Assembly: GCA_035968315.1 (NCBI GenBank)
Contig: JAVYIN010000008.1
Location: forward strand, 1-64,000
DNA: 64,000 nt
Origin: Nitrospira sp.
GTDB taxonomy: Bacteria; Nitrospirota; Nitrospiria; Nitrospirales; Nitrospiraceae
Direction of reading: 5' to 3'
Part shown: one piece after another, positions 1-6,448 of the stretch
Layout: each line of letters opens with the position of its first letter
Position numbering within the stretch: position 1 is the stretch's first letter
Notes under the pieces: model-generated
Seen by the model: only the letters and a program-made list of their open reading frames with translations
What the model was told of the DNA's origin: nothing
Database searches by the model: none
Position numbers and translations under genes: made by a program

Positions 1-172
1 GGTATTGATCGTGATAGACGCGCTCCCACGACCGGTCCGGATAATCGCCCAGCGGGTTCCCGACTTCGATGACCGGCTGCAGCGCGGTCAACGCCAGGAC
101 TTTATCCGCCACCGCCACTGCGGCCACGGTCCCCGCGGAGACTTTCAAAAATTGCCGACGTGACAAAAACAT
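1..172 (-). CDS. nxrA: Nitrite oxidoreductase alpha subunit, N-terminal part (cut by window edge)
   Basis: Only the first 57 codons are present; the gene continues beyond position 1. The start is ATG at 172, with AGGAGGT about 7 bases upstream. The protein opens with a twin-arginine signal (LSRRQFLKVSAG, then an Ala/Val-rich stretch), so a folded cofactor-bearing enzyme would be exported by Tat. The mature start (GNPLGDYPDRSWERVYHDQY) matches my memory of Nitrospira NxrA, the molybdopterin subunit that oxidises nitrite to nitrate on the periplasmic side. The catalytic domain and Fe-S ligands lie outside the window, so another member of the DMSO-reductase type II family is possible. The long AT-rich upstream region is its likely control region. 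Confidence 0.75.
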   Translation of the reverse strand, partial: MFLSRRQFLKVSAGTVAAVAVADKVLALTALQPVIEVGNPLGDYPDRSWERVYHDQY

Positions 173-827
173 GAGTGACACCTCCTAAGTTGAGGGCTCA
201 AAAAGCCCACGTGCCTTTCCTACTATTTAAACCGCTTACCAACCACCCCCCTTCCTTCTGATGATTTCGCCTTAAACCCGAGAACAAATAGCTGGCAACG
301 AAGGGCGCTATAACCTTCCATCCACGCTATTTTCTCAACGTTTTCCAGCATAACGATTCATTCCTTATCGCAATATTCAAACCATTGAATTGAAATGGGA
401 TGACAGGAGGGCAATGCTTTTAACTAGTTGATAAGTATAGACATAATGACTTTACTGCGATCCAATCAACAAAGAGACACTTCTTCGAAATGAGTAGTTT
501 TAGTATCACTTAAAAATCTCCATGCCAGCTATGCTATATAAATATAAAAAATACAGCTACTTATGAGTTGCGTCGATTATTCGTCCGGTGATACCAAAAG
601 GTAGCGCTCTATCCGCTGAGCGAGACGTTTTCCCATCTAAATCTATGCGCATGATTCATGTAAAAAAGATCTAGCGTAGGTCAATGAACATCCGGCTACG
701 TCTTTTTATAATCTCTCATTAAAAAGACGGCCCCCAGTGATGCTAGCTCCTAGCTTCCATAGCTCTAAATCCATCGTTCAGATATTTCGCCTGACCATGA
801 CAATCTTTTATATATTGATTGGCTTGC
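173..827. other. AT-rich intergenic region upstream of nxrA
   Basis: About 650 bases without a convincing gene, clearly richer in A+T than the flanking coding DNA. It should hold the promoter and leader of the leftward nxrA gene, but I could not pick a clear -35/-10 pair on the minus strand. A small GGGCT/AGCCC hairpin (194-208) sits just upstream of the nxrA ribosome-binding site. The only other recognisable element is the tRNA-like fragment at 592-624. Confidence 0.5.
592..624 (-). pseudogene. tRNA-like fragment (D-arm, part of anticodon arm)
   Basis: On the minus strand positions 624-605 read CTCGCTCAGCGGATAGAGCG, which is a perfect tRNA D-arm of the kind seen in tRNA-Arg. It is followed by a short TACC-TTTT-GGTA hairpin where the anticodon arm would be. 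I could not find a matching acceptor stem or a GTTCRA T-loop downstream, so it is not an intact tRNA gene. It may be a decayed tRNA, a scar left by an integrated element, or chance. Confidence 0.35.
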
Positions 828-856
828 TTGACAGCCAAGATCTACCTCAGTAGAAT
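828..856 (+). promoter_or_regulatory. Sigma70 promoter for tRNA-Gly
   Basis: TTGACA at 828-833, a 17-base spacer, and TAGAAT at 851-856. The predicted start near 863 lies about 20 bases before the tRNA-Gly gene. The match to consensus (11 of 12) and the position make this a strong candidate. Confidence 0.75.
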
Positions 857-883
857 CGCACCTCTTCGTCAGCCCCCTAGCGA

Positions 884-958
884 GCGGGAATAGCTCAGTG
901 GTAGAGCATCGCCTTGCCAAGGCGAGGGTCGAGGGTTCAAATCCCTTTTCCCGCTCCA
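884..958 (+). tRNA. tRNA-Gly (anticodon GCC)
   Basis: A complete cloverleaf. The 7-bp acceptor stem GCGGGAA pairs with TTCCCGC (948-954), the D-arm is GCTC...GAGC, and the anticodon stem TCGCC/GGCGA carries GCC at 916-918. The T-loop is GGTTCAAATCC and the 3' CCA is encoded (956-958). A consensus promoter lies just upstream. Confidence 0.97.
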
Positions 959-1036: not shown

Positions 1037-2008
1037 ATGGTGAGTGACGTAGCATTTGAGTCCATTGCCCAGGCGGCTGATATCCTAAGGGGAGTCGCCC
1101 ACGTTACACCGGTCATATCGAACCGACAGCTCGATGCGGTGGCACAGGCATCCGTCTTCCTCAAATGCGAGCAGTTTCAAAAAACCGGCTCTTTCAAGTT
1201 TCGAGGAGCCTACCATGCTGCCAGCCATGTCCTCTCATCCGGTCGCTCCAAAACTGTCGCCACCATCTCTTCCGGAAACCATGGTCAAGGACTGGCCTTG
1301 GCCGCCAAGTTGCTTGGCCTCTCCGCCCATGTGATCGTGCCAAAACCTGAGTCAGCGTTGAAGTTAGCGGCGATTTCGTCATATGGAGCCCAGCTCCATC
1401 TTGAAGAGAATCGATCTCTGGCTGAAACGACGATACGTGAAATGACAGAGCAAGGAGAGATCATTCCGATTCATGCCTTCAATGATCCGCACGTCATCGC
1501 AGGACAAGGTACGATCATGCTGGAGCTCTTCTCGCAAGTCCCGGACTTAGACATCATCCTTGCCCCGATAGGGGGAGGGGGATTGCTGTCGGGGCTCTGC
1601 CTGGCCACCCACCACCTCAACCCATCCCTCCGGGTATATGCCTGTGAGCCTTACGGTGCGGCTGATGCCAAAGAATCTCTCCGATTGAATCAGGTCATCC
1701 CGATGCCTGCGCCACAAACCTTGGCCGATGGGCTCCGGACAAGTCTCGGCAGCAAGACACTCCCCATCTTGCGACAGCACCTGACCGATGTCTTGTTGGT
1801 GAGCGAAGAGGAAATCGTGGCGGCGATGCGCTTCGTCTCTGAACGGATGAAGCTCGTGATCGAACCTTCCAGCGCCGTCGCGATAGCCCCATTACTCCGG
1901 GCAGAGTCCGTGTTAAGAGGGAAACGGGTGGGAGTGGTTATTACCGGAGGAAACGTAGACCTTGAAATCTTTTGGAAGTCTCTAAAGCCCGCAGCCGGCC
2001 AACCATAA
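1037..2008 (+). CDS. Threonine/serine dehydratase-like PLP enzyme
   Basis: A fold-type II PLP enzyme of 323 residues. Lys54 in GSFKFRGA is the expected Schiff-base lysine, SSGNHG (78-83) binds the substrate carboxylate and the GGGG loop (179-182) binds the cofactor phosphate. The family deaminates L-threonine to 2-oxobutyrate or L-serine to pyruvate, and some members are serine racemases. It lacks the C-terminal ACT domains of biosynthetic IlvA, so it resembles the short catabolic type (TdcB) or serine racemase; the sequence alone cannot decide. ATG at 1037 is chosen because longer versions run into the tRNA. The next base triplet, GTG at 1040, is a possible alternative. It converges on the transglutaminase gene 13 bases away. 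Confidence 0.85.
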   Translation: MVSDVAFESIAQAADILRGVAHVTPVISNRQLDAVAQASVFLKCEQFQKTGSFKFRGAYHAASHVLSSGRSKTVATISSGNHGQGLALAAKLLGLSAHVIVPKPESALKLAAISSYGAQLHLEENRSLAETTIREMTEQGEIIPIHAFNDPHVIAGQGTIMLELFSQVPDLDIILAPIGGGGLLSGLCLATHHLNPSLRVYACEPYGAADAKESLRLNQVIPMPAPQTLADGLRTSLGSKTLPILRQHLTDVLLVSEEEIVAAMRFVSERMKLVIEPSSAVAIAPLLRAESVLRGKRVGVVITGGNVDLEIFWKSLKPAAGQP

Positions 2009-2021
2009 ATTTAGAATGTAG

Positions 2022-4214
2022 TCACGCCACCGGCGGATCAAGGTGCATCAATTGGCTAAGGCTCTGCTGAGCGCGGTCCAGCTCTTCTTTGGTCAATGCA
2101 ACCTGTCCAAACCTTCTCCGGCAATAGAGATCCGTGACGATTGCCATCGATTCACCAGCCTGCGCCCATTGTTCTTTGACGGATTGCAAGAATTCCAGGG
2201 GAGTGGCGGCGGGAGACTTGGCAATTCCATATTGAGCGGCCTGCGTGATCGCCCTCTCGTACATGGAGGCAATGACCGTCCGATCAGGGGAGACCTTCTT
2301 CGATAGGCTCTTCTTGCCCCACGGCCACACCCGGATCAGGCCGAACATGGCACCAAACCCGATCACGACGAGGCCCAGAAACTTCAGAACAAGACGAAGG
2401 TTTCCCTCACGTGCAGATTGGACCATCGCACCCAGTCGATCGCCAACGGGAGCCAGCAGTGACGAGAGCGAACTCCACGCGTGATGGCGGACCGCGTCAC
2501 TGCCCTCCTTGAGTCCTCTCACCACCGCGACTTGATCGGCTCCGCTGTATTGCACAAAGAACCGATTCCATCGGAGCCGTAGGTTATCCATCATCCGGCT
2601 CAACGTCTGCCACCCTGGATCGACCACGGATTCAATCACGGCTGGAGTAGGGTCCATCATGACCCAGCCGGAGTGGGGCAAATACACTTCGACCCAGGCA
2701 TGGGCGTCACGTTGACGCACCAGATAATAGTTGCCGTATTCATTCCATTCAGTCGCCAAAAACCCCGTGACTAATCGCGCGGCCACGCCCACACTCCGCA
2801 GCATCACGACCATGGCGGTCGCATAATGCTCGCAATAGCCTGTCTTTCGGGAAAAGAGAAACTCTTCGAGAGGGCGATCCTGGCTGCTGGCCGGAATATC
2901 GAGACTGTATCGGAAATTTCTCGACAGATAATCTTGGATGGCCTGAGCCTTCTCATACGTACTCGCCTTGGCCTGTGTCACCTCTTGGGCCAAGGCGGCC
3001 ACGCGCTCAGAGGCGTCCGGAAGCTGCAAATAATGTCGCGCAAAGGGCTCGGAATATGTGACTGGTTGGGGGTGCAGATCCGCGGGCTGTACCGAATGGG
3101 GGCGTGACAGCACCGTATACTCGATCCGGGACGACGCGGATAACGGAAGGTAGAGCGCCCCGGTCGGATCGGACTGGATCCCGAAAAACTGCCCGCTGAC
3201 CGACTCAGGGAACGGAGCCGCAAACAGCACCGCTGTATCCAATGCCTCCAACAGGATAGTTTGGCGAATCAATGGACCGCTCTGACCGGAGAGACGCGGC
3301 TGGCTGGATCTAATCGTGAAGGTCCCCGGCGATGATTCGGCTACAGCTCGACGATTCGTCAGCTGTGTAGTCCATGATCGCCCATCGTACCGGTCATAGG
3401 CCATTCCCCGCAGATAGAAATGGTCCTCAGCTTTCCCAGACCGCTCAGCCAACTCCACTCGCATCACGATTCCCGGATCCCGCTTGATTGGGCCGATCAT
3501 CCCCAAATCCACGGTTTCTGAAAATCCCGACGTCCGGATGCCTTCCCCCATGCTCGTATGGCCGAATCCTGCGCTCACGCGCGGGATCGTGAAGAAGATC
3601 ACCACCGTGAACAACAACGTTCCCAGAGCCAGGCCATTGGCCAGCCAAAACAATTGCGGGGTAATGCGGGCTCCACTTGCCGACGGTGACTCGACCGAGT
3701 TCGCAGCCCGAACCTCCAGCGTGCGGTCCTCAGATTCTCTTGTGAGCTGATACAGCACGAGCGTCCAGACTCCCGTCAGGAGATAGGCAAGAAACACGGG
3801 GAGGTACCACAAATCTGTGGTCGATGCCGCCGACGCCAAAATGGCCATCAGGCTGATGGCGTAGAGGTGGAGGTAGTCCCTCCGGCTCTCCAAATTGAAA
3901 AGCTTGATGACCATGAGCAGCAACAGAAAATGCACGCCCGCCGGCAGCAGCTCACCCGACATCCAGAGCAGATCAACCCAGAATCCCGCAAAAGCTGTGA
4001 GCACCAGGACATTCCACGCTCTCGTCGAGAGCGTGATGTGATTCACGAATTGACCAACTGGATAGATCCCGACGGTTCGCAGAAGGGTGAGGATCAACGT
4101 CGATCCGGTGAGCAGCAGAAGACCTTCCGGCAAACTCGCGCCGAGACTGAGGCCGATAAAGGCCGCGGAGGCGAGCAAGATCGATGTCAGCCGTAAGGCC
4201 TTATCAAACGGCAT
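2022..4214 (-). CDS. TgpA-type transglutaminase-like membrane protein
   Basis: About 730 residues. The N-terminal third is a bundle of hydrophobic helices (DUF3488/TgpA N-domain), followed by an extracytoplasmic transglutaminase-like domain with the Cys-His-Asp triad in GYCEHYATAM, DAHAWVEVYL and DPTP. A further membrane helix and a DUF4129-like tail come last. TgpA in Pseudomonas is an essential periplasmic transglutaminase-fold protein; its substrate is unclear. The start is uncertain: ATG 4214 has GAGGG close upstream and overlaps the DUF58 gene by 11 bases, and ATG 4241 is the alternative. It is the last gene of a MoxR-DUF58-TgpA operon, a widely conserved trio. Confidence 0.88.
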   Translation of the reverse strand: MPFDKALRLTSILLASAAFIGLSLGASLPEGLLLLTGSTLILTLLRTVGIYPVGQFVNHITLSTRAWNVLVLTAFAGFWVDLLWMSGELLPAGVHFLLLLMVIKLFNLESRRDYLHLYAISLMAILASAASTTDLWYLPVFLAYLLTGVWTLVLYQLTRESEDRTLEVRAANSVESPSASGARITPQLFWLANGLALGTLLFTVVIFFTIPRVSAGFGHTSMGEGIRTSGFSETVDLGMIGPIKRDPGIVMRVELAERSGKAEDHFYLRGMAYDRYDGRSWTTQLTNRRAVAESSPGTFTIRSSQPRLSGQSGPLIRQTILLEALDTAVLFAAPFPESVSGQFFGIQSDPTGALYLPLSASSRIEYTVLSRPHSVQPADLHPQPVTYSEPFARHYLQLPDASERVAALAQEVTQAKASTYEKAQAIQDYLSRNFRYSLDIPASSQDRPLEEFLFSRKTGYCEHYATAMVVMLRSVGVAARLVTGFLATEWNEYGNYYLVRQRDAHAWVEVYLPHSGWVMMDPTPAVIESVVDPGWQTLSRMMDNLRLRWNRFFVQYSGADQVAVVRGLKEGSDAVRHHAWSSLSSLLAPVGDRLGAMVQSAREGNLRLVLKFLGLVVIGFGAMFGLIRVWPWGKKSLSKKVSPDRTVIASMYERAITQAAQYGIAKSPAATPLEFLQSVKEQWAQAGESMAIVTDLYCRRRFGQVALTKEELDRAQQSLSQLMHLDPPVA

Positions 4215-5325
4215 GGGCCCTCGCGCGGAGAGCTGTTTCATCAATGACGACGTCCGGACGCCCTCCCCAAGAAAAGAGCTCCTGTCTCCCCCAAGGCAAA
4301 ATGGCAATGGTCGCACCGGCTCCGCCACTCAACGAGTCATCACCCTCTGCAGGAATGAGCGGCCCGTTTGAGTCGGGAGCCACCCGCTCACACAGCGCCA
4401 AGGATTCCAATAGGCCCATCAGATGGGCCTCGCCTTGACCAAACACAGACGGGGTCTTCCCCACAATCATCCTCACTTGATACCCCCGCGCCGTCAGTGC
4501 CCAGGCCAGAGAGGCCGTCAACGACACCGCCTCCTCGAACAGGGTGTCATGACTTTGCGGAGCGGTTGTAGAGAGGATGAGCGTCACGCGCTGCTGATCT
4601 TCCGCTTCCATCTCACGCACCATCAGCTTTGAGGTGCGCGCCGTGGAGAGCCAATGGATGTTGCGGGAATCATCGCCCGAGTGGTACTGCCGCAGATTAT
4701 AGAGTTCGCTTCCATGCCCTCTTCGCTGAAGCGAGCGCTCATGCCCCAAGGCAATGACGTTTGCAAGGAGCTGGTCTTCAACCGGCTGAATCGCGGGAGA
4801 AACAATCACTGATCCTTCGAGAGGATAATAGGCCTTCTTGAGAAACAGGCCGAAGGGAAACGAGGTGCCGACGCGTACGCCTCCCAAAGACAACCGCCCT
4901 CGTTTGGTCGCCACCAGGGGATAGGGCAACAGATGACTCGCCCCGGGCAGCAATTGCCGCACTGTCAGCCCGCGATCGATCTCCTGCTCGCCGGCCACAT
5001 CCCACAGGCGGAGCGAAAAGCTCGGCATCCGTGTTTTACGATTGCTCACGACGAGCGTCGCCGTCGTCGGCTCATTGAGATAGATGAGGCCCGGGAGATG
5101 GCGGCGGAATTCCAGCCTGCGCAGGCAGAGCTCCGCCACAATCCCTGACATCATTACCACACTCAACATCATGGCAAGGAGCAGATAAAACAGATTATTG
5201 CCGGTATTGATCGCGGCCACGCTCACGGCGAGCGTGAAAAACAGAAACCTGGTTCCCTCGGACGTGACTCGCGTCGAGCGGCGCTGGGTCACACGCCGGA
5301 ACCACCGTTTCAGACCATTCAGCAT
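4204..5325 (-). CDS. DUF58 domain protein
   Basis: 373 residues. Two adjacent hydrophobic segments near the N-terminus (roughly residues 27-65) would anchor the protein. A beta-rich region and the DUF58 core follow, with the typical signature near residues 205-225 (HGSELYNLRQYHSGDDSRNI), where the family is von Willebrand factor A-like. DUF58 proteins are nearly always encoded next to MoxR AAA+ ATPases and are thought to be their partner or substrate-binding subunit at the membrane. Here it sits between MoxR and TgpA and overlaps the TgpA start, so the three are probably translated together. The exact function is unknown. Confidence 0.87.
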   Translation of the reverse strand: MLNGLKRWFRRVTQRRSTRVTSEGTRFLFFTLAVSVAAINTGNNLFYLLLAMMLSVVMMSGIVAELCLRRLEFRRHLPGLIYLNEPTTATLVVSNRKTRMPSFSLRLWDVAGEQEIDRGLTVRQLLPGASHLLPYPLVATKRGRLSLGGVRVGTSFPFGLFLKKAYYPLEGSVIVSPAIQPVEDQLLANVIALGHERSLQRRGHGSELYNLRQYHSGDDSRNIHWLSTARTSKLMVREMEAEDQQRVTLILSTTAPQSHDTLFEEAVSLTASLAWALTARGYQVRMIVGKTPSVFGQGEAHLMGLLESLALCERVAPDSNGPLIPAEGDDSLSGGAGATIAILPWGRQELFSWGGRPDVVIDETALRARAHAV

Positions 5326-5364: not shown

Positions 5365-6306
5365 TTAGACAGGGACCGGGACGGACTCGACGAGATCATG
5401 CACCACCTGCTCGGTCTGCTCGCAATTGCGCTGGCGCAACCCCTGAGACCGGCTGAGCATGATGCGATGCGAGAGCACGACAGGGGCCAGCTCTTTAATA
5501 TCGTCCGGCAGGCAATAGGCCCGTCCTCGCACAAACGCCAACGCTTTGGCCGCACGGCTCAAGGCCAGCGCGCCACGGGTGCTCACACCGAGCGACAACA
5601 GCTCCGTCTGCCGCGTCGCCTGCACGATTGCCAGGAGATACTCCGTTAAGCTCTCCTCCATCAGCACCTGCTCGACTTGGTGTTGCAAGTCGAGCACGTC
5701 GCGGGCACTCACCACCGGCTGCAGATCTTCGGCCGGATGAAGCGATTGCGGGCGGTCCAGCACCTTCTTTTCCTCCTCCGGCGAGGGATAGCCGATCTGA
5801 AGGCGCATGAGGAACCGGTCGAGCTGCGACTCCGGCAAGGGGAACGTGCCGTGATATTCCGCCGGGTTCTGGGTGGCAATGACCATGAAGGGCTGATGCA
5901 GCGGATGGGTCTGATTATCGACGGAAATCTGCGCTTCGCTCATCGCTTCCAATAAACTGCTCTGCGTCTTGGGCGTCGTGCGATTAATTTCATCGGCTAG
6001 AACGATGTGCGCGAAAATAGGGCCCGGCATAAATTCAAACGCCTGTTTTTGCCGGTTGAACAGGGAGACGCCGACAATATCGGAGGGCAGCAAATCGCTG
6101 GTGAACTGAATGCGTTTGAAAGAGCAATCCAACGACCGCGCCAGACTGTGAGCCAGGGTCGTCTTCCCAACGCCCGGCACATCCTCCAGCAACAGATGCC
6201 CGCGGGCCAGCAGGGTCACGACCGTTCGTTCGATGACGCTCGGTTTGCCTTTGATCACACGGGCAATATTCTCTTGGATCGCCTGCACGATGGAGGTGGA
6301 TTTCAT
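5365..6306 (-). CDS. MoxR family AAA+ ATPase
   Basis: 313 residues from ATG 6306 (a longer reading frame adds an unconvincing N-terminus). The Walker A loop is VPGVGKTT (43-50), Walker B ends in ADE (104-106), and the sensor stretch ATQNPAEYHGTFPLPESQLD is the MoxR family hallmark. MoxR ATPases act as chaperones that mature or remodel protein complexes, often at the envelope. It is first in the MoxR-DUF58-TgpA run; the gene above it, a methyltransferase-like protein, points the same way and ends 142 bases upstream, so it may or may not share a transcript. Confidence 0.93.
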   Translation of the reverse strand: MKSTSIVQAIQENIARVIKGKPSVIERTVVTLLARGHLLLEDVPGVGKTTLAHSLARSLDCSFKRIQFTSDLLPSDIVGVSLFNRQKQAFEFMPGPIFAHIVLADEINRTTPKTQSSLLEAMSEAQISVDNQTHPLHQPFMVIATQNPAEYHGTFPLPESQLDRFLMRLQIGYPSPEEEKKVLDRPQSLHPAEDLQPVVSARDVLDLQHQVEQVLMEESLTEYLLAIVQATRQTELLSLGVSTRGALALSRAAKALAFVRGRAYCLPDDIKELAPVVLSHRIMLSRSQGLRQRNCEQTEQVVHDLVESVPVPV

Positions 6307-6448
6307 AATGGGTATCGTCGTTGTTCCGGTTGTGAGGCAGATACTGACCAGATTAGAGAGAAGTCTAGCAAAGGGTCTGGGGGTGGTCAATTTATGGTGT
6401 ATATCCGGCGGGCGAGGCCGACGAATGTTCGACGGGCAGGGGAATTGG

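Follow-up and report, generated by a model that had tools for sequence, protein, structure and literature searches.

The open frame at 172..2 on the minus strand, which runs off the edge of the 64,000-nucleotide stretch of DNA analysed here (the window), is the start of a Nitrospira-type nxrA, the gene for the catalytic alpha subunit of nitrite oxidoreductase, with which Nitrospira draws energy from nitrite. Taken together, the evidence indicates almost certainly that this is the nxrA start of a canonical nitrite-oxidising Nitrospira, that it belongs to a set of two or more near-identical nxrAB copies collapsed by the assembler, and that the AT-rich gap beside it is a control region in which the use of sigma-54 is most likely. 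The gene itself is ordinary and familiar, and the promoter that it shares with its relatives is the sole mildly new point.

The visible part of nxrA (2..172, minus strand, interrupted at window position 1, where the contig ends) comprises the first 57 codons including a Tat signal; counted from the ATG its residues are MFLSRRQFLKVSAGTVAAVAVADKVLALTALQPVIEVGNPLGDYPDRSWERVYHDQY, the protein beginning MFLSRRQFLKVSAG. A ribosome-binding site, AGGAGGT, was read from the sequence at 180..186 on the same strand and is kept in 23 aligned upstream regions. Profile matches to Pfam TAT_signal (1.8e-6) and TIGR01409 (1.1e-4) bear out the Tat signal that the original prediction had recognised in these residues. 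Among all PDB chains, the sole match at E<=1 was 7b04_B, 'Nitrite oxidoreductase subunit A' of Kuenenia (E 7.4e-11), with a collinear, gap-free alignment over residues 1-57, and NarG, against which the prediction had proposed to search as well, was not matched. The fragment was also matched in 50 of 59 related genomes, at identities up to 100% and in several cases at exactly 100%, and many of these matches lie in open frames roughly 1150 codons long. Scanning organism-named genomes with the fragment returned almost exclusively Nitrospira or Nitrospirales records, three N. moscoviensis loci among them, in keeping with the earlier claims of a nitrite oxidoreductase alpha gene at the window edge and of a nitrite-oxidising source for the whole window.

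The surroundings of the gene are conserved as well. Upstream of nxrA lie tRNA-Gly(GCC) (884..958, plus strand), a gene for a PLP-dependent threonine/serine dehydratase-like protein (1037..2008, plus), and genes for a TgpA-type transglutaminase (2022..4328, minus), a DUF58 protein (4204..5325, minus) and a MoxR AAA ATPase (5365..6390, minus). MoxR, DUF58, TgpA and tRNA-Gly(GCC) are found ahead of nxrA at about 25 loci in congeners, one of them in N. moscoviensis, and the dehydratase gene stands between TgpA and tRNA-Gly in some species only. The order MoxR, DUF58, TgpA, dehydratase, tRNA-Gly(GCC), nxrA is shared with an N. moscoviensis nxrAB locus (NZ_CP011801, L079), to which the window locus is orthologous; the two are 100% identical over the 57 residues and both carry a sigma-54-type element, at -198 in N. 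moscoviensis. They differ in that nxrAB is complete there and cut by the assembly here, and in that the other upstream DNA has diverged. Judged from its place in the genome, the N. moscoviensis locus most likely corresponds to nxrAB_1, a locus with no adjoining transcriptional regulator identified (PMC6606698). A plasmid location of the nxrA locus was considered and rejected, since it has no PLSDB match and relatives carry this gene order on the chromosome.

The intergenic region that separates nxrA from the divergent tRNA-Gly (173..883) spans 711 bp and has 41.9% GC, against 56.9% for the whole window, falling to 33% at 400-560. The original prediction had described a 650-base AT-rich gap that controls the key energy enzyme; its AT-richness holds, its length was about 60 bp too short, and its role as the control region of nxrA is likely, given the conserved sigma-54-type element that it carries. 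This putative -24/-12 promoter element, TGGTTTGAATATTGCG, occupies 369..384 on the minus strand, 197-212 bp upstream of the nxrA start codon; it fits only 8 of 12 consensus positions and has GG and GC ten bases apart. Across 23 dereplicated upstream regions from loci of this type, conservation is seen in the ribosome-binding site and in TGG-N6-T-N-TTGC, the latter having the make-up of a sigma-54 -24/-12 core. Sites were scored with the published consensus, requiring the invariant GG/GC, a position from -300 to -90 and a score >=8, and dinucleotide shuffles, two stretches further upstream and the opposite strand served as controls. By this scoring, 57 of 58 regions upstream of nxrA across Nitrospirales contain a sigma-54-type site; many of these regions are related to each other and not independent. 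The corresponding counts are 5.45 in shuffles, 6 and 8 in the two further-upstream stretches and 2 for the opposite strand. When a score >=10 is required, 26 regions have a site vs 0.35 in shuffles. On contig C7, the second nxrA copy of this genome is preceded by its own sigma-54-type element, CGGCATAGTAATTGCC, located at -156; a site lies at the matching position in the counterpart of this copy in another species (G025, L045). The genome also encodes rpoN.

The most serious alternative is that the TGG-N10-TTGC block is a different conserved element, such as an activator site or an untranslated RNA feature, and that nxrA is transcribed by sigma-70 polymerase. Such a reading could account for the distance of about 200 bp between the block and the start codon and for the deviation from the full sigma-54 consensus, yet it appears unlikely because the invariant GG/GC core and its spacing are kept, the sites are strongly biased to one strand (57 vs 2 of 58), rpoN is present, and sigma-54-dependent regulators adjoin many Nitrospira nxr operons (PMC7522533, PMC6606698). 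Moreover, the minus strand yielded no sigma-70-like call, and an RNA element in the stretch that separates the promoter from nxrA was rejected, as this stretch had no Rfam match and a folding energy like that of shuffles (z -0.14). The preferred reading is therefore that of a sigma-54 promoter: transcription of nxrA would most likely depend on sigma-54 RNA polymerase acting at the element at 384-369, and it would require an enhancer-binding activator, which might act in trans. Whether nxrAB loci across Nitrospirales, including the tRNA-Gly locus for which no regulator gene is known, are all driven by sigma-54 promoters at about -110 to -290, placing a core energy enzyme under an activator-dependent switch operated partly in trans, is a broader proposal to which we give about an even chance. 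No account of a conserved promoter at the regulator-less nxrAB locus was found in the literature covered, which was partial, and genome papers may already describe nxr promoters. The conserved -24/-12 element could provide a testable handle on the regulation of nitrite oxidation at a locus without a reported regulator.

Two further sequences in the gap were observed. A sigma-70-type promoter-like site, TTGACA-17-TAGAAT (828..856, plus strand), is located 5′ of tRNA-Gly as a consensus match only. The stretch at 598-626 on the minus strand, CGCTCAGCGGATAGAGCGCTACCTTTTGG, resembles a D-arm with part of an anticodon arm and may be what is left of a degraded tRNA; the tRNA models make no call there, and its core string occurs in none of the relatives compared.

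The abrupt end of nxrA is explained by the assembly, which consists of 11 contigs (3.11 Mb, 99.97% complete). The window covers bases 1-64000 of contig C8, so that window position 1 is a contig end. Another nxrA start, its protein 96% identical, lies at the extreme end of contig C7, and the C7 and C8 ends have exactly 141 identical bases in common (window 1..141, minus strand), the next base being different. Comparison of all 22 contig ends recovered six branch pairs, C7/C8 and five others, and one circular self-overlap, every one of exactly 141 bp, and these branches include the starts and ends of apparent tuf (EF-Tu) genes. Overlaps of such uniform length are the signature of a de Bruijn graph broken at repeats with k = 141; a k of 141 is the largest default of MEGAHIT. 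Since the other 141-bp branches (contig ends L149-L170 of this genome, G000) lie within genes present in duplicate, tuf for example, almost all gaps of this assembly correspond to duplicated genes. No trace of the nxrA body or of the rest of nxrB was found in the 11 contigs; the only nxrB piece is its last 23 codons at the end of contig C9, and no second contig end carrying an nxrB tail was found among the contig ends. The 141-bp overlap of C7 and C8, the nxrB tail on C9 and the absent body together show that the assembly collapsed nearly identical nxrAB copies whose shared piece lies outside the bin, two being a lower bound on copy number. A short-read assembler unable to resolve the copies would have merged them, halting C7 and C8 in the same 141-bp nxrA block and C9 in the nxrB end, which accounts for the missing rest of nxrA. 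Collapse of nxr copies in assemblies is a known problem in Nitrospirales (PMC12342949; PMC12542776).

A real truncation, in which the fragment would be a pseudogene or a 5′ remnant of recombination that owes nothing to assembly, is very improbable. The visible piece does amount to just 57 codons, and recombination between nxrB paralogs removed an nxrAB copy in N. moscoviensis (PMC6606698); however, the piece stops precisely where the contig does, the block in common with C7 has the same 141-bp length as the six other contig-end relations, and the frame is open to the edge and 100% identical to intact congener genes. A pseudogene was rejected on the strength of these 141-bp overlaps, leaving assembly collapse as the explanation of the break. 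Two related observations concern contig ends and gaps. Just past the nxrB stop at the C9 end (L062, 1460-1501) there is an inverted repeat, GGGCGGAG ... CTCCGCCC, which is likely the nxrAB terminator. The one-contig assembly of a congener (G022) has 100-N gaps beside its three nxrA starts (L047, L048, L049), the same collapse hidden within scaffolds.

The assembly lacks the gene body, so evidence on the molybdopterin domain and nxrB comes only from relatives and from the 23-codon nxrB tail. A congener protein of 1145 residues, identical over the 57 residues (L043), matches NXR-A over its full length with 1586 bits, vs 157 bits for the next best family and 74 bits for NarG; a full-length congener also scores far under the family-model cut-offs of narG, ebdA and others. 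The Molybdopterin domain is present in this congener protein (P0001), and nxrB lies directly downstream of nxrA in congeners. None of the 57 visible residues is catalytic. The congener NxrA that is 100% identical over them contains C67, N70, D71, C75 and C115, all kept relative to Kuenenia stuttgartiensis NXR-A (7b04), in which C67, D71, C75 and C115 are the FS0 ligands and the Asn is the proposed substrate-coordinating residue (PMC8387239). Judged from congeners, the FS0 ligands of this clade would thus be Cys67-Asp71-Cys75-Cys115, beyond residue 57. The [4Fe-4S] His-Cys3 motif that the original prediction had expected is a NarG-like pattern and gives way to Cys-Asp-Cys-Cys in congeners, outside the visible fragment; NarG (e.g. 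1q16), although of the same molybdopterin superfamily, has His for the first FS0 Cys and Cys for the Asp. The Kuenenia enzyme differs in coming from an anammox organism, in its tubule-forming complex and in its Tat signal sequence. An origin from another type II DMSO-reductase family enzyme (NarG, perchlorate or selenate reductase, ethylbenzene dehydrogenase) is barely conceivable: the fragment matches the general type II model TIGR03479 over the first 52 model positions, but no such enzyme in PDB matches it at E<=1, and the match scores of both the fragment and the full-length congener led to the rejection of NarG and the other molybdopterin families.

With the gene assigned to Nitrospira-type nxrA, the window is fixed as DNA of a canonical nitrite-oxidising Nitrospira. 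No match to amoA was obtained in this genome; the same search found amoA in 21 of 39 congener genomes, which shows that it works. The genome is therefore apparently that of a canonical, not a comammox, nitrite oxidiser, the absence of amoA being in principle open to assembly loss. NxrC-type EB_dh genes are present. NxrA would be exported by the Tat system, suggesting a periplasmic location, and together with NxrB and an NxrC-like subunit it could oxidise nitrite to nitrate at a periplasmic molybdenum cofactor. The assembly also illustrates how a near-complete genome can appear without its defining enzyme because a duplicated operon was lost at a k-mer branch.

Contig C10 (L171, 1-14274) overlaps itself by exactly 141 bp and is therefore circular, with a length of about 14.1 kb. 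By eye, its open reading frames resemble those of a coupling protein, ParA, a replication protein, an integrase and a DNA cytosine methyltransferase, and it is likely a mobilisable plasmid of this Nitrospira.
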